This document shows positions 3,574 to 44,588 of a stretch of DNA of 64,000 nt, piece after piece. The translations under genes and the position numbers were made by a program. Origin of the DNA: an uncultured Acidobacteriota bacterium. GTDB lineage: Bacteria > Acidobacteriota > UBA6911 > CAINFC01. The stretch's first letter is position 1; every line of letters starts with the position of its first letter. The notes beneath the pieces are model-generated. The model ran no database searches. It saw only the letters and a list, made by a program, of their open reading frames with translations, and was not told where the DNA came from. The stretch spans positions 1 to 64,000 of the forward strand of contig CAINFC010000080.1 in the NCBI GenBank assembly GCA_903847975.1, read 5' to 3'.

Positions 3574-5178
3574 ATGTTGTCGGCAGCAAGTCTGAGGCTC
3601 GGGACACGCGCGCGCGGCTATCGCTATCCGATCCTGCGGTCCCGGCACAAATCGGCGATCAGCGTCATTTATTCGATCGCCGAGTTTCGGGAGTTGATCA
3701 CCAAGGAATGCGAAAGGGCCGACCGTTACCGCTCGCGTTTTTCGCTGGCCATTTTTGAAGTCGGAACCGTAGACGAAAGCAGCGTTCTGATCCGCCGGCT
3801 GGTACGGACCATACACCACCGGTTCCGGAATACAGATGACGTGGGTTGGTACCGCGCCGGGCAAATCGGGATCATCCTGCCATTCACTCCCGCGGAAGGC
3901 GCCTGGAAGCTGGCCGAATATGTGAGCAGCGTCATCGCTTCCATCACCGCCCCGCCGGCTTTTTCCATCTTCTCTTATCCGTCCGCCAACTGGCCGGAGC
4001 AAAGGCTTTCCCGGCGGATCTCCTCGTTGGTAGGCATCTCGTTCCTGCTGCGCAGGCTGTATTTCCTTCCGGTACCCAAGGCCGATGAACTGCACGCCAT
4101 GATCGCCCGCGAAAGGGGACGATCCGACCGCAACGGGAATATTTTCAGCCTGATCATTTTCAAGATGGAGAACCTGCCGCCGGGTATCTCCACCCAGCGC
4201 CAGATGCTTCTGGATCTCAATAACCGCCTGCGGGACACGGATGAAATCGGGTGGTTCGACGACCGGCACCTGAGCGCTATATTGCCCTATGCCGCCCGGG
4301 CGGACGCCCAGCGCATTGCCGAGGTCATCTGCCGCCATGTCGGAGTTCAACCCGGCCCGGACTTCTACCTGGTCTACACCTACCCGGACAACTGGTTCCC
4401 GGAGCGCAAGCCTGCCGAACTTGAAATTCCGGAGCCGGTCGCCGCAAAACAGGCCCTGCCCGAGGAGGAGGAAAAAGCCATTCCGGATCTGATGGAAGCC
4501 GAAGCCCAGCCCCCTTCCGATCCCACCGACTCCGCTCAGCAGAACTCCGGGACCTTTTTGTTCCGTCCGGTGCCCCTGTGGAAAAGAGCCCTGGATATCT
4601 TCGGCTCGCTGTTTGCCATTTTTCTGCTTTCCCCGTTTTTCCTGCTGGCCCTGCTGATCATCAAATTTTCCTCCCCCGGGCCGGTGTTTTTCCGCCAGCA
4701 GCGCATCGGCTATATGGGTCGCCCGTTCCGGCTTTTCAAATTCCGCACCATGGAAGTCAACGTGGAAACCAAAACCCACAGCCAGTACATGCGCAAGCTC
4801 ATCGTCGAGGGAAGCGACGGCCTGCCGATGACCAAAATCGAGCACCATCCCGGTATCATCCAAGGCGGGCGGCTGCTGCGCTCCTCCTGCATCGACGAGC
4901 TTCCCCAGCTGTTCAACGTCCTGTTCGGACAGATGAGCCTGGTCGGCCCGCGCCCCTGTTTGCCCTACGAGGCGGGCGAATACCTGCGCTGGCACGCCCG
5001 CCGCTTCGACAGCGTGCCGGGAATGACCGGACTTTGGCAGGTCAAGGGGAAAAACCGGACGACCTTCAAGGAAATGATTCGGCTGGACATCCAATACGCC
5101 TTGCGCCGCTCCTTCTGGCTGGACCTGAAGATTCTGTTCCTGACACCGATCGCCATCCTTCGCCAGATTATGGAATAA
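3574..5178 (+). CDS. Polyprenyl-phosphate sugar-1-phosphate transferase with duplicated N-terminal GGDEF-like module
   Basis: 534 aa. The C-terminal part (about 330-534) is a bacterial sugar transferase of the WbaP/ExoY type: one membrane helix (about 338-363), 'FFRQQRIGY...FKFRTM', then 'GGRLLRSSCIDELPQLFNVL' with the Asp-Glu pair at 441-442, and 'MSLVGPRP'. Such enzymes load the first sugar phosphate onto undecaprenyl phosphate in the inner membrane. The N-terminal 300 residues hold two related modules (about 36-140 and 170-275), each with a 'D-x-x-GW' and 'ILPF/ILPY' stretch resembling degenerate diguanylate-cyclase domains. A Glu/Pro-rich linker (about 277-325) joins the halves. The helix number is lower than in WbaP. 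It is probably the initiating enzyme for the polymer made by the operon at 34438-44421, though the two are 30 kb apart. Confidence 0.85.
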   Translation: MLSAASLRLGTRARGYRYPILRSRHKSAISVIYSIAEFRELITKECERADRYRSRFSLAIFEVGTVDESSVLIRRLVRTIHHRFRNTDDVGWYRAGQIGIILPFTPAEGAWKLAEYVSSVIASITAPPAFSIFSYPSANWPEQRLSRRISSLVGISFLLRRLYFLPVPKADELHAMIARERGRSDRNGNIFSLIIFKMENLPPGISTQRQMLLDLNNRLRDTDEIGWFDDRHLSAILPYAARADAQRIAEVICRHVGVQPGPDFYLVYTYPDNWFPERKPAELEIPEPVAAKQALPEEEEKAIPDLMEAEAQPPSDPTDSAQQNSGTFLFRPVPLWKRALDIFGSLFAIFLLSPFFLLALLIIKFSSPGPVFFRQQRIGYMGRPFRLFKFRTMEVNVETKTHSQYMRKLIVEGSDGLPMTKIEHHPGIIQGGRLLRSSCIDELPQLFNVLFGQMSLVGPRPCLPYEAGEYLRWHARRFDSVPGMTGLWQVKGKNRTTFKEMIRLDIQYALRRSFWLDLKILFLTPIAILRQIME

Positions 5179-5195: not shown

Positions 5196-6971
5196 ATGAA
5201 CATCCGGTTCTTTCAACGCAGCCTTTTTGTTTTTTTCCTTCTCGCCCCCTGGATGCTTTCCGCCCAGCCTTCGCCGTCTGCGTCCGGCACCCTCCCGGTC
5301 CAGGTGGAGGCCAACGTGCGGGTCAAAATGCGCGACGGCATATCGCTGCTCTGCGACATCTATCGACCTACCGGACCCGGCCGCTACCCGGTTCTTCTGA
5401 CCCGAACCCCTTACAACCGCAAGGATGCCAGCCAGGGAATGTTTCTTGCCTCCCACGGCTATGTGGTCATCCAGCAGGATACCCGGGGCCGCTTCGGCTC
5501 CGAGGGGGAATTCTACCCCTTCCGCCACGAGGCCGCCGACGGCTACGATACCATCGAATGGGCCGCCGCGCTGCCGTACGCCGACGGCCGGGTCGGAACC
5601 TTCGGCGGCTCCTATGTGGGCGCCACCCAGATGCTGGCCGCCTCCGCAGCCCCGCCCCACCTGGTGGCCATTTTCCCTTATGTGACTGCCGCCGAGTACT
5701 ACGAGGGATGGACCTACGAGGGGGGAGCGCTGATGCAGTGGTTCGCGGAATCCTGGACCGCCGGCTTGATCAACGATACGCTCGGCAAGAAATCGGCCCG
5801 CCTCAGCCGCCCCCTGGCCTGGGCCGAGCAGCTGCCGGTGGATGAATTCCGGATTGCCGCTTTCCCTGCGCCGGACGAACTGGCCCCCTACTTCCGGGAC
5901 TGGGTTCGCCACGAGAGCGACGATGACTACTGGGCCGCGGTGCGGGTTTCGGATCACTACGGGAAAATGAACATCCAGGCCCTGCACGCCGGCGGCTGGC
6001 ACGACATTTTCAGCGGCGGTTCGGTCCGCAATTTTATCGAAATGCAAAAGCAGGCTCCCACCGAAAAGGCGCGCCGGGGGCAGCGCCTGCTCATGGGGCC
6101 CTGGGCGCATGCCGCCACCTCCCCGGAGGGCCGGATCGGAGGGGTCACCTTCGGAACCCAGGCAGTGCTCGACATGAACGACACCATCGTCCGCTGGTAC
6201 GACTACGTGATGAAGGGCAGGCAGAACGAATTCGCCTCCGATGCCCCGGTCCGGATTTTCGTGCTGGGCGAGAACGCCTGGCGCACCGAGCGCGAATTCC
6301 CGCCGGCCCGCGCCGTCCCCACAAGGTATTATCTGCACGCCACTCGCGGTGCCAACTCCGCCTCGGGCGACGGAGCTCTTTCCACCGCTCCTCCGAAACA
6401 GGAAAGGGCCGATGAATTTGAATACGATCCGGCCAGCCCGGTGCGAACCCTCGGCGGAAGACTCTGCTGCGGCGGCCTGGACCCCGGACCCTTCGACCAG
6501 CGCCCGAACGAATCCCGCAGCGACGTGCTGGTTTTTTCCACTCCTCCTCTGGAGCAGGATCTGGAAGTGACCGGATTTGTGACCATGGAGCTGTATGCGG
6601 CCACCTCCGCGGCCGACACCGATTTTACGGCCATGCTGGTGGACGTGGATCCTTCGGGATTCGCCCGCTACCTGGCGGACGGGATCCTTCGCGCGCGCTA
6701 CCGCGAATCGCGTTCCAAAGCCACTCCGATCGAGCCCGGAAAAATCTATGCTTATTCCATCGATCTCTGGGCCACCAGCAATCTTTTCAAAGCCGGCCAC
6801 CGCATACGGGCCTACGTCTCCAGCAGCAATTTCCCCCGGTTCAGCCGGAACCTGAACACCGGGGAAAGCACTTTCGGTTCCTCAAGGATGGTCCGAGCCA
6901 GGCAGACTGTCTACCACGACGCCGCACACCCCTCGGCCCTGATCCTGCCGGTAATTCCAAGACCAAAGTGA
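5196..6971 (+). CDS. CocE/NonD-family alpha/beta hydrolase (X-Pro dipeptidyl-peptidase S15-like)
   Basis: 591 aa. A Sec signal peptide (residues 1-23) precedes an alpha/beta-hydrolase core with the nucleophile motif GGSYVG (Ser139) and a probable catalytic His at 'GGWHD' (H269). A C-terminal jelly-roll domain of the X-Pro peptidase type follows (about 400-591, 'SDVLVFSTPPLEQDLEVTG'). Family members cleave acyl, ester or X-Pro peptide bonds. Substrate cannot be deduced. The ATG at 5196 follows CAGGAG and sits 17 bp after the sugar transferase stop, so the two genes are probably cotranscribed. Confidence 0.88.
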   Translation: MNIRFFQRSLFVFFLLAPWMLSAQPSPSASGTLPVQVEANVRVKMRDGISLLCDIYRPTGPGRYPVLLTRTPYNRKDASQGMFLASHGYVVIQQDTRGRFGSEGEFYPFRHEAADGYDTIEWAAALPYADGRVGTFGGSYVGATQMLAASAAPPHLVAIFPYVTAAEYYEGWTYEGGALMQWFAESWTAGLINDTLGKKSARLSRPLAWAEQLPVDEFRIAAFPAPDELAPYFRDWVRHESDDDYWAAVRVSDHYGKMNIQALHAGGWHDIFSGGSVRNFIEMQKQAPTEKARRGQRLLMGPWAHAATSPEGRIGGVTFGTQAVLDMNDTIVRWYDYVMKGRQNEFASDAPVRIFVLGENAWRTEREFPPARAVPTRYYLHATRGANSASGDGALSTAPPKQERADEFEYDPASPVRTLGGRLCCGGLDPGPFDQRPNESRSDVLVFSTPPLEQDLEVTGFVTMELYAATSAADTDFTAMLVDVDPSGFARYLADGILRARYRESRSKATPIEPGKIYAYSIDLWATSNLFKAGHRIRAYVSSSNFPRFSRNLNTGESTFGSSRMVRARQTVYHDAAHPSALILPVIPRPK

Positions 6972-36174: not shown

Positions 36175-38490
36175 TCATCGCCTGGCCTGAATCATTTTCC
36201 GGTATAACGACTCCAGCCGCCCCGCGGCCGCTTCCCAGCTATACTTTTCCACCGCCACCCGCCGCCCGGCGGCCCCGAGGTGGCGGCGGAGCTCTTCATC
36301 CCGGAACAGAACACCGATCCCGGCGGCCATTTCCGCCGGTGTGTCGGCCAGCCACACATTTTCCCCGTGAACCGCCGGCAATCCGGCGCAGGCCAGCCGC
36401 GTGGCCAGAACCGGACGCTGCATGGCCCAGGCTTCCAGAATTTTTCCGCGAATGCCGACTCCCAGCCGCAAGGGGACGACATAAACCGATGCCCGCAGCA
36501 GATGGGGCCTCAGGTCCTCGACGTAGCCGGTCACCGTGATTTTCCCCGACCGGGCCAGGGCGCTGATCTCCCCGGGAGGGCTGGACCCGACAATCGACAG
36601 CCGGACCTCGGGAAATTCCTTTTCCACCAGGGGAAAAACTTCCCGGCAAAAGAAAAGCATGGCTTCGCAGTTGGGATGATGGTTGAAGGAACCCACAAAA
36701 ACCAGGCGGTGCGGCTCTTCGGCCATTGGACAGCAGGCCGGGTCGAAATGCTCCAGATCCACTCCGGTGGGGATGACCTCCAGCCGCCGGCTGTCCATCA
36801 GCCCGGCAAAAAACCCGGCGTCCTTGGGCGTCATGCATATCACTGCGTCCGGCCGGCTCATCAGACGAATTTCCCGGTGCATGACCTGCATGTAGTTGTA
36901 AAACCAGAACACCTTCTGCAGCCAGTTGGGCCGTATGCGGGCCTGAAGACGGCAGGCCGCATAGTTCACCTCATGCTCCGTCAGAATTTGCGGGATCGGA
37001 CAACCGTCGAGAATATAGGCGGCCATCTGCGCATATTCGTAATGAATCAGGTCGAAGCTCTCCTTTTCCAGCTCTTCCAGCAGAGCGCGCCGGAAAGGTG
37101 TGGAGTAAAAGGCGTCGAAAGGCTCGTAAATAAAAAGGCTCCGGATGTAGTCCGGGTCCCGGCGCAGGACCCGCACCGATGCGCAGAACTCCCGCAGGGG
37201 CTCCGCCCGTTCCAATTCCGCCGGGCTCTCGGCAAAGGTCAGCACCGAAACCTTGTGGCGGCGGGCCATCCGCCGGATCAGGTGGAACATGCGCCCCGCG
37301 CCGGCATGGTGCCCGAGGTGCGGAAGGTAGGCGGTAACCATCAGGATCCGGAGGGGCATCCCCTCTCCCGGAGATTTTTTGCTGGGATCGTAATAAAAGC
37401 GGTATCGCTCCTCCAGCTCGCGAAAAATCTCCCGTTCCCTGCGGGCCGGAGCCGGCTCCTGGCGGCGAAGAAGCAGGACCTGCGGCAGGAGGCGCAGGGC
37501 CTGGGCCAAAGCCGGCGCGCATTCGCTGCCGCGGCCCAGCAGAATCCGCATCCAGCAGGCGGGAAAAACCAGGCCGTGCCACAGCAGGTTTTTCCAGTCG
37601 TGAAGGTTCACCCAGGCGAAAAGGAGCTGGTTCCGCAGGATCAGCACTTCCAGGTCGCGGGCAGCGAAGCGCCGGGCACTGGAGGCCCGGTGCTCGTGGT
37701 GCACCCGGCTCCGGGGCGCAAAAAGAACTTTCCAGCCGCGTTTCCATGCCCGGAACGAAAGGTCGGTATCCTCCACGTAGCAGGGTGAGTAAAGCTCGCG
37801 GAGCCCGCCCAGGGCCAGGTACTTTTCGCGATGAAAGGCGCTGGAACCGCCCCCGGCGTAAAAAATAGGCACGTAGCCCCGCTGCTCATCCCACTCCTGC
37901 GGCGGCTGGTGAGCGAAGGAAAACCATCCGCGGCGCAGGAAAGCGGCCGTTTTCCCGGTCTCCTCTCTCGGCCGGGCGGGATCCAGGAAATCGACCTGGG
38001 AACTGACGGCGAACGTGTCTTCGTCGAACCCTTCCAGGAGGGGGCGCAGGAAGTCCGGCTCCACCCGCATGTCGTTGTTGAGCAGCACCACGAACGGATG
38101 GCCGGCCAGCTCCACGCCGTGGTTGTTGCCCTTCGAAAAGCCCATGTTTTCCGGCAGGGAAACCAGCTTCACCTCCGGGAAGTTGCCCCGGACAAAAGAG
38201 ACGCTGTCGTCCGAGCTGCCGTTGTCGACCACGATGATTTCATGTTCGCCGTGGTCGCTGCGAACCGCCTCGACCACCGAAGGCAGGTTTTCTTCGAGCA
38301 GACGGCGCCCGTTCCAGTTCAGGATGATGATGCTGGCCCGCCGCTCGTGCCGTTCGGGAAGAGGCCTGCTCCCGGCAGACACCACGGGCCGCCGCCTCCC
38401 TTCCAGGAGGCGGCCGGCCAGAACCAGGATCCATGCCGGCACGAACAGCGCCAGCGAGGCGACACCCAGCAGGAACCGAATCACGCTCAT
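36175..38490 (-). CDS. Bifunctional glycosyltransferase: GT2 domain fused to GT4-type domain
   Basis: 771 aa. After an N-terminal hydrophobic segment (about 3-25), a GT2 domain (about 52-300) shows 'SIIILNWNG', 'VVDNGSSDDS', 'LLNNDMRV' at the DxD position and 'YVEDTDLSFRAW'. From about residue 375 a GT4/GT1-type domain follows with 'GAGRMFHLIRRMA', 'TEHEVNY', 'VIPTGVDLEHFDP', 'VFVGSFNHHPN' and a C-terminal Rossmann half. The enzyme probably adds two sugars in succession at the cytoplasmic face of the membrane. The ATG at 38490 has GGAGAG upstream and is preferred to the TTG at 38532 that overlaps the ATPase gene. Confidence 0.88.
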   Translation of the reverse strand: MSVIRFLLGVASLALFVPAWILVLAGRLLEGRRRPVVSAGSRPLPERHERRASIIILNWNGRRLLEENLPSVVEAVRSDHGEHEIIVVDNGSSDDSVSFVRGNFPEVKLVSLPENMGFSKGNNHGVELAGHPFVVLLNNDMRVEPDFLRPLLEGFDEDTFAVSSQVDFLDPARPREETGKTAAFLRRGWFSFAHQPPQEWDEQRGYVPIFYAGGGSSAFHREKYLALGGLRELYSPCYVEDTDLSFRAWKRGWKVLFAPRSRVHHEHRASSARRFAARDLEVLILRNQLLFAWVNLHDWKNLLWHGLVFPACWMRILLGRGSECAPALAQALRLLPQVLLLRRQEPAPARREREIFRELEERYRFYYDPSKKSPGEGMPLRILMVTAYLPHLGHHAGAGRMFHLIRRMARRHKVSVLTFAESPAELERAEPLREFCASVRVLRRDPDYIRSLFIYEPFDAFYSTPFRRALLEELEKESFDLIHYEYAQMAAYILDGCPIPQILTEHEVNYAACRLQARIRPNWLQKVFWFYNYMQVMHREIRLMSRPDAVICMTPKDAGFFAGLMDSRRLEVIPTGVDLEHFDPACCPMAEEPHRLVFVGSFNHHPNCEAMLFFCREVFPLVEKEFPEVRLSIVGSSPPGEISALARSGKITVTGYVEDLRPHLLRASVYVVPLRLGVGIRGKILEAWAMQRPVLATRLACAGLPAVHGENVWLADTPAEMAAGIGVLFRDEELRRHLGAAGRRVAVEKYSWEAAAGRLESLYRKMIQARR

Positions 38491-38518
38491 AGCCTGGCTC
38501 TCTCCGTCGATTCCGGTT

Positions 38519-39814
38519 TCATTCCCGGGCAACTCCTTCCTCCACCCGGTGCCGCAGGGCAGCCGGCATCCGGAACATGCCGTAGACCAACCGGGAGCTC
38601 TGAATGGTGAAATGCAGCGCGTTGTCCACCCAATCGCACATTTCGTGCTTCAGCAGGGCCCCCTGGGCCACCGCCGGAGAAAGGGTATAGGCACCCGGGG
38701 CCAGGTGCGGCAGCTGCAGCAGGAAGTCCACGGTGCACACCTGCCCGGGCCGGCCGGGGGGCAGCGGGTAATCTTCATGCAACGTGTTGGTGGCCGAAAT
38801 CTCCACACCCAGCCGGTCCCGCAGGGTAAAACCGACGATCGGACGGGGCAGCTCGGCCCGGTAACGAACGCTGATCCGCACCCGGGCGGCTTCTCCGGTG
38901 AAAAGTTCGCGGCGCGCGCGCCCGAGCGGGTCCATCAGCTCTACCCCCAGAACCTCCGCCCGGCCGTCGCCAAAGCGGTGATCCATGGCCGGAAGGCCGA
39001 TGACGGGTGCCAGCTGGGGATCCGGCTCTTCCGGCTCCGCATCCGCGGATGGATCCAGGGAATTTTCTTCGCCCTGCTCCTGCTGGCGGGCGAAAATCAG
39101 GGCCCGGTATCGCTGAACCACGGCGTCCGGCCGGTCGTCCATGATCATCCGGCCATGGTCCAGAAGGATGCACCTCTGGCAGAACCGGGTGACCGCCGAA
39201 AGGTCATGGGTGACCAGCAGGATGGTGACTCCATCCTGCCGCAGACGGTGAATGCGGTGCAGGCAGCGCTGCTGAAAAAGGAGGTCTCCGACCGCCAGGG
39301 CCTCGTCCACCAGCAGGATTTCAGGGTCCACATGGATGGCCACGGAAAATGCCAGCCGCATGAACATCCCCGAGGAGTAGGTCTTGACCGGCTGCTCCAG
39401 GAAAGGGCCGATATCGGCGAAGCGGACGATATCGGCGAAGCGGCCGTCCATCTGGCTTTTGCTCAGCCCCATGATGGCCCCGTTCATGTACACGTTGTCG
39501 CGCCCGGAAAATTCCGGATTAAAGCCGGCGCCCAGTTCCAGCAGGGCGGATACCTTGCCGCGAACGAACAGATCGCCCCCGGTCTGGCCGAGCGTACCGG
39601 CGACAATCTGCAGGAGCGTGCTCTTCCCCGAGCCGTTCTGCCCGATGACTCCGACGGAGCTGGCTCGCGGCACTTCCAGGCTGATATCCCGCAGAGCCCA
39701 GAATTCATCGGTCCGGTGCTTGCGGCGGGTCACGATTTCCAGAAATTTATCGGATGGCCTCCGGTAAACCGGATAGCATTTCGACAGGTGCACAGCCGAA
39801 AGAACCGCGCTCAT
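38519..39814 (-). CDS. wzt: Polysaccharide ABC transporter ATP-binding protein with C-terminal Wzt-type carbohydrate-binding domain
   Basis: 431 aa. Walker A 'GQNGSGKST' (58-66), signature 'YSSGM' (146-150), Walker B 'ILLVDEALAVGD' (about 166-177) and switch His203 are present. A linker rich in Glu and Pro (about 230-255) leads to a beta-sandwich (about 265-400) in the position of the O-antigen-end-recognition domain of Wzt proteins, which suggests that a chemically capped chain is selected for export. The start overlaps the stop of the permease gene by 4 bp (ATGA). Confidence 0.9.
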   Translation of the reverse strand: MSAVLSAVHLSKCYPVYRRPSDKFLEIVTRRKHRTDEFWALRDISLEVPRASSVGVIGQNGSGKSTLLQIVAGTLGQTGGDLFVRGKVSALLELGAGFNPEFSGRDNVYMNGAIMGLSKSQMDGRFADIVRFADIGPFLEQPVKTYSSGMFMRLAFSVAIHVDPEILLVDEALAVGDLLFQQRCLHRIHRLRQDGVTILLVTHDLSAVTRFCQRCILLDHGRMIMDDRPDAVVQRYRALIFARQQEQGEENSLDPSADAEPEEPDPQLAPVIGLPAMDHRFGDGRAEVLGVELMDPLGRARRELFTGEAARVRISVRYRAELPRPIVGFTLRDRLGVEISATNTLHEDYPLPPGRPGQVCTVDFLLQLPHLAPGAYTLSPAVAQGALLKHEMCDWVDNALHFTIQSSRLVYGMFRMPAALRHRVEEGVARE

Positions 39815-40623
39815 AGCACATCGGAGAATTCGCGCTTGCCGACGCGAAACACCGCTCCTCCTAAAATAAAGATCGCCAGGGACACCAGGAATCCCTGCAG
39901 CAGCGCGGCCGGGTCCGGACTTCGGCCCTGCAGCAGGCAGGCCCGATACCCGTCCACCACCACCGACATCGGGTTGAATTGGGCCAGAGGCCGCAGCCGC
40001 TCGGGAAGCATGTCCAGGGTGTAAAAAATCGGTGTAAACCAGAACCAGAGAGTCATAACCACCTGGAGAACCTGCGCGGTATCCCGCAGAAATACCTGCA
40101 GCGTGGCCACCAGCCACCCCAGGCCCAGGGAGAACAAAAACAGGATGATCCAAAGCAGCGGCAGCAGCAGAACCCTCCCGTACAGCCCCTGACTCCACGC
40201 CAGGGCCAGGAGCAGAATACCGAGCCCGATCCAGTGGGCCACCAGGTTGGCCAGAAACAGGGACAGCGGAACCATCTCCACCGGAAACTTGGTTTTCTTC
40301 ACCAGGTTGGCGTAGTCGATCACCATGTTGACCGACCGGATCACGGTGTCCTGAAAGAGAAGCCAGGGAAGAATCCCGCAAAAAAGAAACAGGGCGAAGC
40401 TGTCCGTTCCGGTCTTCACCAGGGCCTTCTGCCGGAGGACCACCGAGAAAACAAAGGTGTAGGTAAAGAGCAGCATCAGCGGGTGGATGACTGCCCAGAA
40501 AAAGCCCATCAGGGATCCGATGTAGCGGCTTTTCAGATCGCGCACCACCAGGTTCCGAAGCAGATTCCTCTGCAGCAGCAGCTTGCGGAGGAAATTTTGG
40601 CAGATCGTCCAGGCATCCCGCAT
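39811..40623 (-). CDS. wzm: Polysaccharide ABC transporter permease (ABC-2 type)
   Basis: 270 aa, six predicted membrane helices. The N-terminal amphipathic stretch 'NLVVRDLKSRYIGSLMGFFWAV' precedes helix 1, and 'LPERLRPLAQFNPM' is the typical ABC-2 loop near the C-terminus. Together with the ATPase at 38519 it forms a Wzm/Wzt exporter moving undecaprenyl-linked polysaccharide across the inner membrane. It overlaps the ATPase by 4 bp and follows the DUF1972 glycosyltransferase gene by 10 bp. Confidence 0.9.
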   Translation of the reverse strand: MRDAWTICQNFLRKLLLQRNLLRNLVVRDLKSRYIGSLMGFFWAVIHPLMLLFTYTFVFSVVLRQKALVKTGTDSFALFLFCGILPWLLFQDTVIRSVNMVIDYANLVKKTKFPVEMVPLSLFLANLVAHWIGLGILLLALAWSQGLYGRVLLLPLLWIILFLFSLGLGWLVATLQVFLRDTAQVLQVVMTLWFWFTPIFYTLDMLPERLRPLAQFNPMSVVVDGYRACLLQGRSPDPAALLQGFLVSLAIFILGGAVFRVGKREFSDVL

Positions 40624-40633
40624 GTTGTTCCTT

Positions 40634-41776
40634 CTACCGGGAAGCCGTGTTCCCTGCCGGAGCCTTGCCGGGAATGTCCTTCCGCCGGCGGAGCGACTGA
40701 AAGATCCGCTCGTAGGAGGTGGTTACCGTCTCCCAGTTGTAACGGCTGGCCACCCGCAGCCGGGCCGATTCTCCTTTGGCTTCGCGCAGCCGCGGGTCTC
40801 CCTCCGTCTCCCGCATGATGCGGGCCAGGTCGGCGGCATCGTTTTTCCGGTAAAAAAATCCCGTTTCCCCCAGGACTTCCCGGTTTTCCGGCGTATCGTT
40901 GGCCAGAACCATATTGCCATAGCCCATGCCCTCCACCAGGGCCGGGTGCGTACCGCCCACTTCCGTAGCCTGAAGGTAGGCCCAGGCCCGGGCCTGCAGG
41001 GCATGATACTCCTTTCCGTACACCGCGCCGGTAAAGTGAACCCCTTCCCCGGCATAGCTCCTCAGCCAGTCGATATAGGATCGGGCATAGGGCGCATCGC
41101 CGACAAGGAGCAGCGGCAGCCGGCTTCCGGAACGGCGGTGGGCTTCGAGGACCACATGGGCATTATTTTCGGGCTCCAGCCGGCTGACGTAAAGATAGTA
41201 GCCGCGCGGGGCAATGCCCAGCGAACCGAGCAGCCTGCTTTCTTCCGTTTCCAGGCGGCTGAATCCATAAGGGATGCACTCGGTTTCCTGGCGATGCTCC
41301 CGGCGGTAATATTCCTGAATCACGCCGGCATCGGAAATCAGCCGGTCGGCCAGCCAGATGGAAAGGAATTCCGAGAGGCGATACCAGCCCCTGCCGAGCG
41401 GCCCCCATTTCTGGCGCTGACGCTCGATGCCGTCCAGGTTCAGCAGGGAAGGGATACCGCCCAGGTGCAGGACCGCGCAGCAGAATCCGTTGGCCGCGTT
41501 GCAGATCAGAATGGCGTCAAACGGCTGAAACATGGCCCACAGCGCCGACAGCAGAGAGTGGACCGGGGTGTCCAGATACTTATGGCGGATGGTGGGCAGG
41601 ATTTTGAGCTGTACGCCGCGGTACTCCTTTCTTTTTTCCGATGCATAGTGCGATCGGCAGAACACCGTTACCGTATGGCCGCGCTCCACCAGGCGAACGG
41701 CGAGCTCTTCTGCGAAGGTTTCAAATCCTCCGTAGTTGGCTGGGATGCCCCGTGTTCCCAAAATACCAAGCTTCAT
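40634..41776 (-). CDS. GT4-family glycosyltransferase with DUF1972 N-terminus
   Basis: 380 aa. 'MKLGILGTRGIPANYGGFETFAEELA' at the N-terminus is characteristic of the DUF1972 rhamnosyltransferase-like branch of GT4. Later blocks are 'LLNLDGIERQRQKWG' and 'YVSRLEPENN', then 'EVGGTHPALVEGMGYGN' with the E-x7-E nucleotide-sugar motif. Homologues transfer rhamnose or a related sugar during surface polysaccharide assembly. It lies within the minus-strand operon between the small membrane protein and the exporter. Confidence 0.88.
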   Translation of the reverse strand: MKLGILGTRGIPANYGGFETFAEELAVRLVERGHTVTVFCRSHYASEKRKEYRGVQLKILPTIRHKYLDTPVHSLLSALWAMFQPFDAILICNAANGFCCAVLHLGGIPSLLNLDGIERQRQKWGPLGRGWYRLSEFLSIWLADRLISDAGVIQEYYRREHRQETECIPYGFSRLETEESRLLGSLGIAPRGYYLYVSRLEPENNAHVVLEAHRRSGSRLPLLLVGDAPYARSYIDWLRSYAGEGVHFTGAVYGKEYHALQARAWAYLQATEVGGTHPALVEGMGYGNMVLANDTPENREVLGETGFFYRKNDAADLARIMRETEGDPRLREAKGESARLRVASRYNWETVTTSYERIFQSLRRRKDIPGKAPAGNTASR

Positions 41777-41837
41777 AAATCACACGGCCCGCTGCCCTCA
41801 GAGCCGGCGGGATCGCCGCAACCGTTGCGTCTTCCCT

Positions 41838-42041
41838 TCAGGAATCGCTCCGCTCCCGGCCGCCGGTTCGACCGGCGGAGCGCTCCATCCAGACGGGAGT
41901 AACCAGGAACCAGAGCACGGCCAGGATCAGCAGGACGCTCTTGGCCTGGTCGAGCGGGATCTGATCGACAAAAAAAAGCAGAGAAGCCAGGAGCGATCCC
42001 AGCAGGGAAAGCCAGGAAACAAGGGGAGCGATCCGTATCAT
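41838..42041 (-). CDS. Small two-helix membrane protein coupled to the NCS1 permease
   Basis: 67 aa with two hydrophobic segments (about 7-25 and 35-52) separated by a short acidic loop, and a basic, polar C-terminus. Its ATG overlaps the stop codon of the NCS1 permease by 4 bp, which indicates translational coupling. No family was recognised. It may stabilise or regulate the permease, as small subunits of other transporters do. Confidence 0.65.
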   Translation of the reverse strand: MIRIAPLVSWLSLLGSLLASLLFFVDQIPLDQAKSVLLILAVLWFLVTPVWMERSAGRTGGRERSDS

Positions 42042-43450
42042 CCGATGCCCTCCGACGGCCGGCCGCCCGGCCGCGACTTTCGCTGCATGGCCAAGCTCAG
42101 CAGCAGGTAAAGAAGGGAGGCCAGGAACCACCCGGGCAGGCCCACAAAATATATCTGGATGTTCCCCCGGAGAACCAGCAGCGCGGAAGCGGCCACCGTG
42201 ACAAGCCAAGACAGTCCGGCCGCCCAGTTGACGCTCCGTCCGGTTGCCTCGCAGTAGTACTTCTGCATGCCCAGCCGGTCGACCACCCAGAAGTCGACGA
42301 AGACCACCGCGCCCATGGGCATAAGAATCATGCCCCAGAGAGCCACGAAATCCAGCAGGCGCATGGTAACCAGAGGGAAAATGGCGGTGAGGCTGGCCGT
42401 CAGTCCCACCGCAAAAGTCACCCAGAACCGTGAAGACCGGGGAATGATGGCCTGAAATGCCAGCCCGGCGCGATACAGGGTAGGGTTGGCCGTCGTCCAT
42501 CCGGCGGCGATGACGCAAAGCAGTCCGGCGATCCCGCAGGCCCGGAAGGCCAATGGCCCGGGCAGAACCGCCGTATTGGCGGGATTCTCGTGCAGCTGCA
42601 GGGCAAAAAGGATGGAGGCGGTGATCCAGGCCATGTAGTGGCCGACGAACATGCCGGCAGCCGATGCAAGCCCGTACCACGACTTTCGCGCAAAGCGGAA
42701 CAGGGTCAGGTCGGCCATTCCGATGTGCCACGCCATGTTGCAGAACCAGGCGAAAAACATAGTGTGCCAGAAGGTGAACTTGGTTTGACCGTCCAGCGGG
42801 TCCCCCCCCTTCCAGATCACCTCCTGCGCCAGGTTCCAGAATTCTCCCGGCGACTTCATTCCCAGCTCGTGCAGCCCGATGATACCGAAGGCGATAAAGA
42901 TCACCACCATCCACGGTACGGCGATGTTGGCAAAGCGTGCGACGGACTTGTACCCCAGGGCAGCAATGAGCGAAAAAAGTAAGCCCATGACCAATACCCC
43001 GAGCACCCAGCCCCAGCTGTTGGGCAGCAGATCATTGAGCCCCGGCATCCGGAACCGGAACCACACCCCGAGGGCGGTAGTGGAAACAGTGATCATGGCA
43101 CCGGCCAGGAAGGAGAACATAACTCCGTTGGCCACGTTGTAGACGGTCACCAGCCTTCGGCCGCAGATTTTTTCGAGCTGGTAATACAGAGTCATTCGGG
43201 CCCGGGTGGCAATCGGAGCGGTCAGCAGCGTCCAGCTAAGCACCGCGAGGATGTTGCCCAGCAGCAGGCCGAACAGCATGTCAAAGGCGCTGACACCTCC
43301 GGCGATGAACAGCGGCCCGATCATCAGTTCGGTGCCGGCCACGTGTTCCCCGGCGAATTGCCCGACATAGCTTTTCAGGCCGAGGCGCCCTTCTTCCGGC
43401 ACCGGCTCCCGCTCGTATTCTCCGGTTGTCCTGTGCTGCGCTTCCGCCAT
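42038..43450 (-). CDS. NCS1-family permease (cytosine/purine/allantoin type)
   Basis: 470 aa, about 12 membrane helices. The start 'VGQFAGEHVAGTELMIGPLFIAGG', the 'VPWMVVIFIAFGIIGL' helix and 'MLFAWFCNMAWHIGMADLT' region fit the NCS1 (CodB/Mhp1-like) fold, but conserved residues for a particular substrate cannot be fixed. The ATG at 43450 is 2 bp after the epimerase stop and keeps the gene in the operon. A nucleobase-type permease within a polysaccharide operon is unusual. Confidence 0.85.
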   Translation of the reverse strand: MAEAQHRTTGEYEREPVPEEGRLGLKSYVGQFAGEHVAGTELMIGPLFIAGGVSAFDMLFGLLLGNILAVLSWTLLTAPIATRARMTLYYQLEKICGRRLVTVYNVANGVMFSFLAGAMITVSTTALGVWFRFRMPGLNDLLPNSWGWVLGVLVMGLLFSLIAALGYKSVARFANIAVPWMVVIFIAFGIIGLHELGMKSPGEFWNLAQEVIWKGGDPLDGQTKFTFWHTMFFAWFCNMAWHIGMADLTLFRFARKSWYGLASAAGMFVGHYMAWITASILFALQLHENPANTAVLPGPLAFRACGIAGLLCVIAAGWTTANPTLYRAGLAFQAIIPRSSRFWVTFAVGLTASLTAIFPLVTMRLLDFVALWGMILMPMGAVVFVDFWVVDRLGMQKYYCEATGRSVNWAAGLSWLVTVAASALLVLRGNIQIYFVGLPGWFLASLLYLLLSLAMQRKSRPGGRPSEGIG

Positions 43451-43452
43451 GG

Positions 43453-44421
43453 CTACTCTGTCCGGGCTTCCCCCTGGAACCACTGTACCGTCCGCTCCAA
43501 TCCTTCCGTAAAGCTCACCTCGGACCGAAAGCCGAGTATCTGCTCCGCTTTCTTCACCTGGGCCGAGGAAAAGCGCACGTCGCCGGGCCTTGCCGGAGCA
43601 TATTCGGCCGGCAGGGATGTCCCCAGAATGCCATTCAGTATAGTCACCAGTTCATTCAGAGAGTGGCTCCGGCCGGTGCCGATATTGTAAATTTCCCCGA
43701 AACCCCGCTCGGCCTTCATGGCCGCCAGTTTGGCGGAAACGATATCTCCCACGTAAATGAAATCGCGGGTCTGGGCTCCATCGCCGAAAACCATCGGCCG
43801 CTGGCCGTTTCGCAAACGCTGGATAAATTTCGGGATGACGGCGGCATAGTCCGATGCGGGATCCTGCCTGGGGCCGAAGACGTTGAAAAAGCGAAGGCAG
43901 ATGGTTTTCAGCCCGTACAGCGAATAAAAAAGCTGCGCATACTGCTCCCCGGCCGCTTTGTGAGCCGCATAAGGCGAAAGACAGCGGTTCGGCATGTCTT
44001 CCACTTTGGGCAGCGCTTCCGAATCCCCGTAAATGGCGCAGGAAGAGGCAAATACCACCCGCGGCACCTCCATGTTTCTGGCCGCCAGAAACGTGTTCAG
44101 CGTCCCGGTGACGTTGACGTCGTGGCAGGGCAGGGGCTCGCGTACCGACTGTTCCACCGATGGGATCGCCGCCAGATGAAATACCCCCGCCGCCCCGCGG
44201 AACTCATTTTGCAGCAGTCCCAGATCGCGGATATCCCCGCGGGTGACCGCCAGGCGATCTCCGTAGGCAGATTGCAGGGGACGCAGGTTTTCTTCCCGGC
44301 CCGTGGAAAAATTATCAATGACCTTCACCCCGGCTCCCTGCTGCAGCAATGAGGCCACAAGGTTGGAGCCGATAAAGCCGGCTCCACCGGTAACGACATA
44401 AAAATTGATCCTCTCTTCCAT
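43453..44421 (-). CDS. NAD-dependent epimerase/dehydratase (UDP-glucose 4-epimerase-like)
   Basis: 322 aa, an extended SDR enzyme. 'VVTGGAGFIGSNL' binds NAD; the active site is Ser of 'SSCAIYG' with Y-x3-K in 'SPYAAHK'. 'LRFFNVFGPRQDP' is typical of GalE/WbpP-like epimerases of UDP-GlcNAc or UDP-glucose. It leads the minus-strand glycan operon and probably supplies a nucleotide sugar. An open frame continues upstream to 44556, but the ATG at 44421 fits the family start. Confidence 0.88.
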   Translation of the reverse strand: MEERINFYVVTGGAGFIGSNLVASLLQQGAGVKVIDNFSTGREENLRPLQSAYGDRLAVTRGDIRDLGLLQNEFRGAAGVFHLAAIPSVEQSVREPLPCHDVNVTGTLNTFLAARNMEVPRVVFASSCAIYGDSEALPKVEDMPNRCLSPYAAHKAAGEQYAQLFYSLYGLKTICLRFFNVFGPRQDPASDYAAVIPKFIQRLRNGQRPMVFGDGAQTRDFIYVGDIVSAKLAAMKAERGFGEIYNIGTGRSHSLNELVTILNGILGTSLPAEYAPARPGDVRFSSAQVKKAEQILGFRSEVSFTEGLERTVQWFQGEARTE

Positions 44422-44588
44422 CCGTTTTGCCGTCCTGTCGGGTCTACGCCCGTAAAAAAGGAAATTGTTATCCCGAGATCCAGCATTGTACCTTTTTTTA
44501 TGCCGTAACGTCGCCCCCATTCCCCGGTCGACCGGAAAAAATCTTTGTTTTCTCACGCCATCCAGGTTGACCCGTCCTCAGACCCTTG

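Follow-up and report, generated by a model that had tools for sequence, protein, structure and literature searches.

The two-module gene and its transferase domain

The window, i.e. the whole stretch of 64,000 nucleotides that was analysed (positions 1 to 64,000 of contig CAINFC010000080.1, from an uncultured Acidobacteriota bacterium), carries at positions 3574-5178, on the forward strand, a gene for a sugar transferase that is preceded on the same chain by two GGDEF-like modules. The gene is an open frame of 534 codons that starts with ATG, with the sequence GGGAG located 11-15 nt before the start, and it encodes a protein of 534 residues.

The catalytic part of the protein is a monotopic phosphoglycosyl transferase (PGT) domain (Bac_transf, PF02397), located at positions 4576-5163 of the forward strand (about residues 335-530) and recognised by Pfam, by sequence and by predicted fold; the match to PF02397 (residues 337-529; E 6.1e-57; 192.5 bits against a cut-off of 27) identifies the protein as a monotopic PGT. 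Sequence comparison gives WbaP and PglC as the relatives of this domain with solved structures, and the best Foldseek matches of the full-length model are PglC, WbaP and GGDEF structures, with unrelated folds occurring lower in the list. The pair Asp441-Glu442 (positions 4894-4899, forward strand) is among the invariant columns of a 61-row alignment, and we take it to be the catalytic dyad of monotopic PGTs; judged from its sequence, the PGT domain is complete, this pair included, and transferase activity is predicted. The domain departs from the NDPRIT stretch. An earlier note on this DNA had placed a sugar transferase at 3574-4500: the identity stands and the interval does not, as it spans only the N-terminal 309 residues and leaves the transferase domain outside.

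Scores against WbaP and WcaJ amount to 184.1 of 403 bits and 190.6 of 410.75 bits, respectively, and both matches cover the C-terminal part of the window protein only; a Pfam scan of the protein has returned no match to PF13727. Before the transferase, no stretch of 19 residues exceeds 1.6 on the Kyte-Doolittle scale, the highest value being 1.44 at residues 149-167, between the modules. The window protein is a monotopic PGT by these features, but not one of the large (WbaP/WcaJ) type, i.e. it is without the N-terminal membrane bundle and the DUF.

Two related modules of GGDEF ancestry

Both modules are located on the forward strand. Module 1 (positions 3679-3999, residues 36-142) is assigned as a degenerate GGDEF from its AF2 model, from Foldseek and VIA comparisons and from its alignment to PDB 3ign, while module 2 (positions 4081-4392, residues 170-273) is assigned from its similarity to module 1 and from the full-length AF2 model. 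That the N-terminal half contains two related modules, as had been claimed from two peptides starting at residues 89 and 224, is confirmed by their direct comparison: the modules align without gaps over 108 columns at 27% identity (BLASTP E 7e-19, single comparison), and their Smith-Waterman score of 148 is reached by none of 2000 shuffled sequences (mean 25.3, sd 4.3).

The two modules resemble each other more than they resemble any of 56 other module sequences (some of them present under two identifiers), with which they score at most 103 and 94, respectively, so that a tandem duplication fits better than the fusion of a stand-alone module to a PGT-linked module, an origin that we have considered and do not favour; of 42 canonical GGDEFs, one reaches a score of 117 with module 1. 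The module sequence that matches module 1 best, among those compared, is a stand-alone protein of 173 residues (L010:1444-1962), which lies over the Pfam cut-offs for GGDEF and PelD_GGDEF and reads RSGEAEF at the RYGGDEF position.

Profile searches place the modules near the limit of recognition. The N-terminus of the window protein matches Pfam GGDEF (PF00990) with E 0.046 and 13.9 bits, below the curated cut-off of 23.8; each module searched alone has no Pfam match, a profile scan of the protein gives no GAF or PelD_GGDEF match, and the match to DgcR (E 0.0028) falls far under the DgcR cut-off. The protein matches PDB 3ign, a c-di-GMP complex according to its title, with E 0.0016. Every one of the nine PDB sequences that a profile of 63 family modules retrieves at E<=0.01 is named GGDEF or diguanylate cyclase; Pfam GGDEF itself is detected at E<=0.01 in 8 of these 63 modules (best 9.7e-4).

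The predicted structures point the same way. The AF2 model of module 1 (residues 27-156) has a mean pLDDT of 76, and 48 of the 50 Foldseek matches listed for it are GGDEF or diguanylate cyclase entries, WspR, PleD and PelD (4dn0, 4eu0) included; the remaining two are 8wcn (ImcA), whose title is silent on GGDEF. In VIA alignments, module 1 reaches Z values as high as 12.7, with 122 residues aligned at 3.0 A. The full-length AF2 model is weaker (mean pLDDT 69.3, pTM 0.49), with module 2 at about 78-88, most of the transferase confident and module 1 poor (about 55-70). From the profile search and the modelled fold, the modules are degenerate GGDEF homologues that lie below the Pfam cut-off; the GGDEF likeness proposed in the earlier note has therefore survived both the fold prediction and the profile search.

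A mostly acidobacterial family of module-bearing transferases

A second protein of this kind, with one module and 409 residues, is encoded in the same genome, on contig C17. The profile search was extended across 396 genomes of the phylum, and in a scan of named genomes the best 80 of 167 relatives were kept, which gave 77 loci. Complete frames with one module and a transferase account for 73 of these loci (L068 and L101 with only part of the transferase); the other four comprise two module-transferase frames cut by the contig end and two modules alone, one of which is cut. Going by the titles of their records, 70 of the 77 loci belong to Acidobacteria groups, five to Rokubacteria, one to Syntrophobacteraceae and one to Deltaproteobacteria. 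The cultured members of the family include Silvibacterium bohemicum (L110). The window protein is the only two-module frame among the matches listed for the 396 genomes, and two-module chains are absent from the 77 loci.

The family has also been approached from the transferase side. Among 120 genomes of one Acidobacteriota family, 40 carry a transferase that matches the family PGT profile at E<=1e-80, in 42 places; 30 of these places were read, and a module is present in 29, the remaining frame being cut. A wider draw of 149 genomes yielded 30 PGT loci (two frames short, one not read). The module is present in four of them, where no hydrophobic segment precedes the catalytic domain, whereas the 23 long module-free frames have two to five such segments; a segment of this kind is likewise absent from 70 of 71 family frames. 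These contrasting architectures indicate that the module replaces the membrane bundle and the DUF of the large PGTs. The earlier proposal that the modules stand in place of the membrane region of WbaP-like proteins holds for the window protein as well, because no stretch above 1.6 precedes its transferase, compared with the two to five segments of conventional PGTs of the same phylum.

A branch in the tree of 73 transferase domains (90/95; it is not starred, and the bootstrap is not settled) has all 25 conventional domains on one side. The PGT of the window falls on the module side, at the end of an exceptionally long branch (1.94), which makes its exact place unsure. Within a mostly Acidobacteriota family that has little annotation, the window protein is thus a divergent member with two modules; in locus L104, for example, Bac_transf is the only Pfam family at E<=0.001. 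A further architecture has been seen in L080:4405-7032, where an aspartokinase-like part (AA_kinase and ACT) precedes the module and the PGT in one open frame; G467 has a frame of the same length (876 residues), perhaps from the same genome.

Loss of the active site and retention of I-site residues

Our comparison of the motif positions is based on 35 modules, unweighted for relatedness, i.e. 29 and 4 that were found by a PGT-domain profile and the two of the window; the profile was built from the window and 14 loci of the 77-locus scan, and the incomplete row of L193 was left out. I-site counts from the 77 loci were discarded as circular, because the pattern used in that scan, R[ED]TD[LVI]xGW, itself contains RxxD. 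As a canonical control, we have used 43 GGDEF loci from among the best-scoring ones (15 from the window's own genome and 28 from the phylum), in 42 of which the motif is recognisable.

At the GG(D/E)EF position, module 1 reads RAGQI (positions 3853-3867, forward strand), beginning nine residues after R85, which is the canonical GGDEF spacing, and module 2 reads DDRHL (positions 4258-4272, forward strand), as located by alignment to module 1 and to canonical GGDEFs. The GGDEF residues are indeed missing, as had been noticed before, and by its motifs the window protein is not an active diguanylate cyclase. The loss extends to the whole set: the first G, the E and the F of GG(D/E)EF occur in 0 of 35 modules and the second G in 1 of 35, while the K, N and D of FKxxND occur in 0 of 35 each. 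Among the residues that are nearly invariant in canonical GGDEFs (41 or 42 of 42), no more than one module retains any of the following: the K, N and D of FKxxND, the G and H that come next, and the GG, the E and the F of GG(D/E)EF. The first metal-binding Asp, a D in 42 of 42 canonical GGDEFs, is still a D in 21 of the 35 modules (E and K in the two of the window), so that not every catalytic residue has gone from the family.

The secondary I-site is putatively represented by R48 in module 1 (positions 3715-3717, forward strand), which is the R of ExxRxxR and aligns with an R of 3ign and of canonical GGDEFs, and by R183 in module 2 (positions 4120-4122, forward strand), located through the alignments of the two modules with each other and with canonical GGDEFs. 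We tentatively take both residues to correspond to PleD R313, having counted along PleD and along the VIA range (model residue 2 being PleD 293, if ungapped), and having compared the canonical alignment. The RxxD motif of the primary I-site is R85-N-T-D88 in module 1 (positions 3826-3837, forward strand), aligned with the RxxD of 3ign, and R220-D-T-D223 in module 2 (positions 4231-4242, forward strand), aligned to module 1 and to canonical GGDEFs; the spacing between RxxD and the GGDEF position is the proper one in both modules of the window and, overall, in 35 of 35.

The R313-equivalent is an arginine in 25 of 42 canonical GGDEFs, compared with 35 of 35 modules; the corresponding counts for the R and the D of RxxD (equivalent to R359 and D362) are 39 and 40 of 42, compared with 35 of 35 modules for each. 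The full RxxD is present in 38 of the 42 canonical GGDEFs of the same genome and phylum (and in 18 of 18 of a smaller, earlier set that was biased towards the modules); its retention in the modules is therefore partly inheritance, and its value as proof of c-di-GMP binding, for which we had considered it, is weakened. The argument that we retain is a shift in conservation as read from the alignments, chiefly at the R313 position. At the R390 position, K or R occurs in 31 of 35 modules and H in two, with Y116 and V251 in those of the window (by alignment and counting); the window modules are thus without the further basic residue seen as R390 in PleD and R402 in PelD. These positions complete the four I-site residues R313, R359, D362 and R390 given in PMC7288161, and alanine variants of Bacillus cereus PelD, the equivalent R395 included, are described in the available text of PMC7112168 as giving no detectable heats with c-di-GMP. 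The proposed binding of c-di-GMP by the modules gains support from the joint retention of RxxD and the R313-equivalent after the loss of the active site.

Other positions are fixed as well. The E and the second R of ExxRxxR are invariant in 35 of 35 modules, and a new G-W before the GGDEF turn replaces the canonical residues (G in 35 of 35, W in 34 of 35), from which it follows that constraints unrelated to the I-site exist. Such constraints would be expected if the modules were structural only, i.e. if the GGDEF fold served, free of ligand, for dimerisation or as a scaffold that holds the active PGT dimer together, and salt bridges were formed by the invariant E, R, R, R and D; the DUF of WbaP stabilises its dimer, according to the available text of PMC10942596. 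However, the fixed residues include the I-site set, in which the R313-equivalent has become universal and the R390 position is basic in most modules, and we regard a purely structural role as rather unlikely.

The I-site pattern also bears on the identity of the ligand, which could be another nucleotide, such as GTP, UMP or 3',3'-cGAMP. UMP is the ligand of the WbaP DUF in PMC10942596, and GTP binding by a degenerate GGDEF is mentioned in a review (PMC7288161); yet the modules have lost the K, N and D of FKxxND together with the GG and have kept RxxD, an argument that does not touch cGAMP. We hold a ligand of this kind to be very improbable.

Gene neighbourhoods

The genomic context has been examined in the 51 family loci that have at least 3 kb on both sides. 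In 49 of them, a same-strand homologue of at least one of six L104 neighbours is present, these being Wza, Wzc, CpsD, a Gfo/Idh oxidoreductase, a hexapeptide transferase and a DegT aminotransferase; the names are supported by Pfam, except for Wzc, which was named by eye, with no family over the cut-off, and CpsD corresponds to a ParA/AAA match. The single-module paralogue of contig C17 is flanked by a gene for polysaccharide export and by a Gfo/Idh gene, and a PilZ gene (PF07238, E 6.9e-7) occurs upstream of its operon. At E<=1e-10, the genome of the window contains 15 matches to GGDEF and one to EAL.

Several further genes have been observed near the family. PilZ-like genes occur near module-PGT genes in L194 (6927-7286), L085, L088, L064, L069, L072 and L081, the last four having been found with a profile that was built from the genes of the first three. 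NusG-like genes (L104:306-935 and others) are located within 3 kb of the module-PGT gene, on the same strand, in 17 of the 51 loci. Another PGT of the genome concerned (L197:2411-6926, a frame of 444 residues) lies near genes for a SpoIIE-type phosphatase and a STAS protein, which suggests another kind of signal control.

In L031, L035, L044, L243 and L094, the gene immediately upstream of the module-PGT gene encodes a stand-alone module of 142-191 residues; in L055, L056, L057, L077 and L080, a stand-alone module is encoded elsewhere in the locus. This arrangement is what would be seen if the modules were docking sites for a protein partner, which could be an active diguanylate cyclase or the stand-alone module from the same operon. 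However, only 6 of 77 loci have an additional stand-alone module next to the module-PGT (L094 included, and many loci being short), and such pairing would leave the I-site pattern unexplained; docking thus appears quite improbable to us as the main role of the modules.

The window gene itself has enolase-like, RraA-like and peptidase S15-like neighbours, the last of which starts shortly downstream, at position 5196; its near neighbours are not polysaccharide genes, and we have dropped the operon argument for this gene. Glycosyltransferases, an ABC ATPase with a Wzt_C domain and an NAD-dependent epimerase are encoded on the reverse strand at positions 36175-44556 of the window, probably as an ABC-transporter-dependent polysaccharide cluster, which is too distant to count as context of the gene.

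These neighbours raise the question of whether the window gene is a drifting paralogue, the modules and transferase of which have left the function of the family, a reading that is compatible with the other, family-level ones. Its long branch, the loss of the R390-equivalent in both modules, the departure from the NDPRIT stretch and the missing polysaccharide genes would all agree with drift, as would the presence of the single-module paralogue of C17 beside export and oxidoreductase genes. The gene has nevertheless kept its full-length open frame, the GGGAG before its start, the Asp-Glu pair and, in both modules, RxxD and the R313-equivalent, and we consider drift away from the family function to be unlikely.

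Comparison with known systems

PelD of Pseudomonas and Bacillus cereus resembles the window protein in having a dead GGDEF with RxxD and a link to polysaccharide, in addition to the structural matches of module 1 to 4dn0 and 4eu0. PelD has transmembrane helices and a GAF domain, according to the available text of PMC8461298, and the window protein has neither; PelD belongs to Pel synthesis, whereas the family module is fused to a sugar transferase, and the window modules, unlike PelD, are without the third I-site residue. By the features compared, the window protein is not PelD, but it may work like PelD. BcsE, which has a C-terminal dead GGDEF-like domain and acts in polysaccharide control (PMC8461298), is a protein of the cellulose system and not a PGT.

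Among the transferases, the large monotopic PGTs WbaP, WcaJ and EpsZ share the catalytic domain and, by inference from context, the same step; the window protein differs from them in having GGDEF-like modules and in lacking both PF13727 and hydrophobic segments before the PGT. The small monotopic PGT PglC, one of the best Foldseek matches of the full-length model, shares the catalytic domain as well, but consists of this domain only, as described in PMC12802240, without modules. The same source describes the signal-dependent control of an initiating PGT in Myxococcus xanthus, where EpsZ is acted on by a separate response regulator, EpsW; in the family, the GGDEF-like module is fused to the transferase.

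Both parts of the protein are of known kinds, and what is new, within the literature searched, is their combination: we have found no paper there that joins a PGT with a GGDEF. A survey of PGT architecture (O'Toole et al. 2021, PNAS), which lies outside that search, deals with regulatory domains on PGTs, as cited in PMC12802240, and may mention such fusions.

Proposed mechanism and its meaning

We propose, with a probability of somewhat under 0.6, that the window protein is an initiating sugar-1-phosphate transferase that is regulated by a pair of catalytically dead GGDEF modules acting as an I-site receptor of c-di-GMP. Computation has given the predicted fold, the pattern of conserved residues and the neighbourhoods of the genes, while the binding, the sign of its effect and the coupling to the transferase are what we infer from them. 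As in PelD, the I-site of the modules would take up c-di-GMP or a similar cyclic dinucleotide; binding would alter the arrangement or the dimerisation of the PGT and would thereby switch the first committed step in the synthesis of a surface polysaccharide. The module would thus act much as the UMP-binding DUF does in WbaP, the place of which it takes, and the tandem modules of the window protein could form both faces of the site within one molecule.

Parts of this mechanism have precedents in the available texts of the sources cited. The dead GGDEF of PelD receives c-di-GMP by way of RxxD and is required for biofilm that depends on polysaccharide (PMC7112168), and PopA is a further I-site receptor with a degenerate GGDEF (PMC12564702). 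Binding of UMP by the DUF of WbaP suggests that nucleotide binding and regulation of the enzyme are both possible for a domain in that place (PMC10942596), and the control of EpsZ by EpsW shows that signals can act on the PGT that initiates synthesis (PMC12802240). Against the mechanism, as far as the window protein is concerned, stand Y116 and V251 at the R390 position, the branch length and the neighbours that are not polysaccharide genes. The overall interpretation of the earlier note, in which the modules could still bind c-di-GMP or a partner and control the initiation of surface polymer synthesis, is partly supported.

Extended to the family, the proposal would define a third class of initiating transferases, in which c-di-GMP acts directly through a fused, dead GGDEF that bears an I-site, with the window protein as the tandem version that has its site on one chain; the odds of this wider reading seem to us evenly balanced. 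The class would then be common in Acidobacteriota and present in a few other phyla.

Post-translational control of Wzx/Wzy-type pathways is incompletely understood, and c-di-GMP control is well known for synthase-dependent pathways, as summarised in the available text of PMC12802240. If the proposal is true, a PGT with a built-in I-site module directly links the Wzx/Wzy-type pathways with c-di-GMP control, and a likely role is found for a domain that Pfam mostly misses and that occurs in operons of a soil-rich phylum. The start of polymer synthesis may thus be switched by c-di-GMP across a whole family of mostly soil bacteria.
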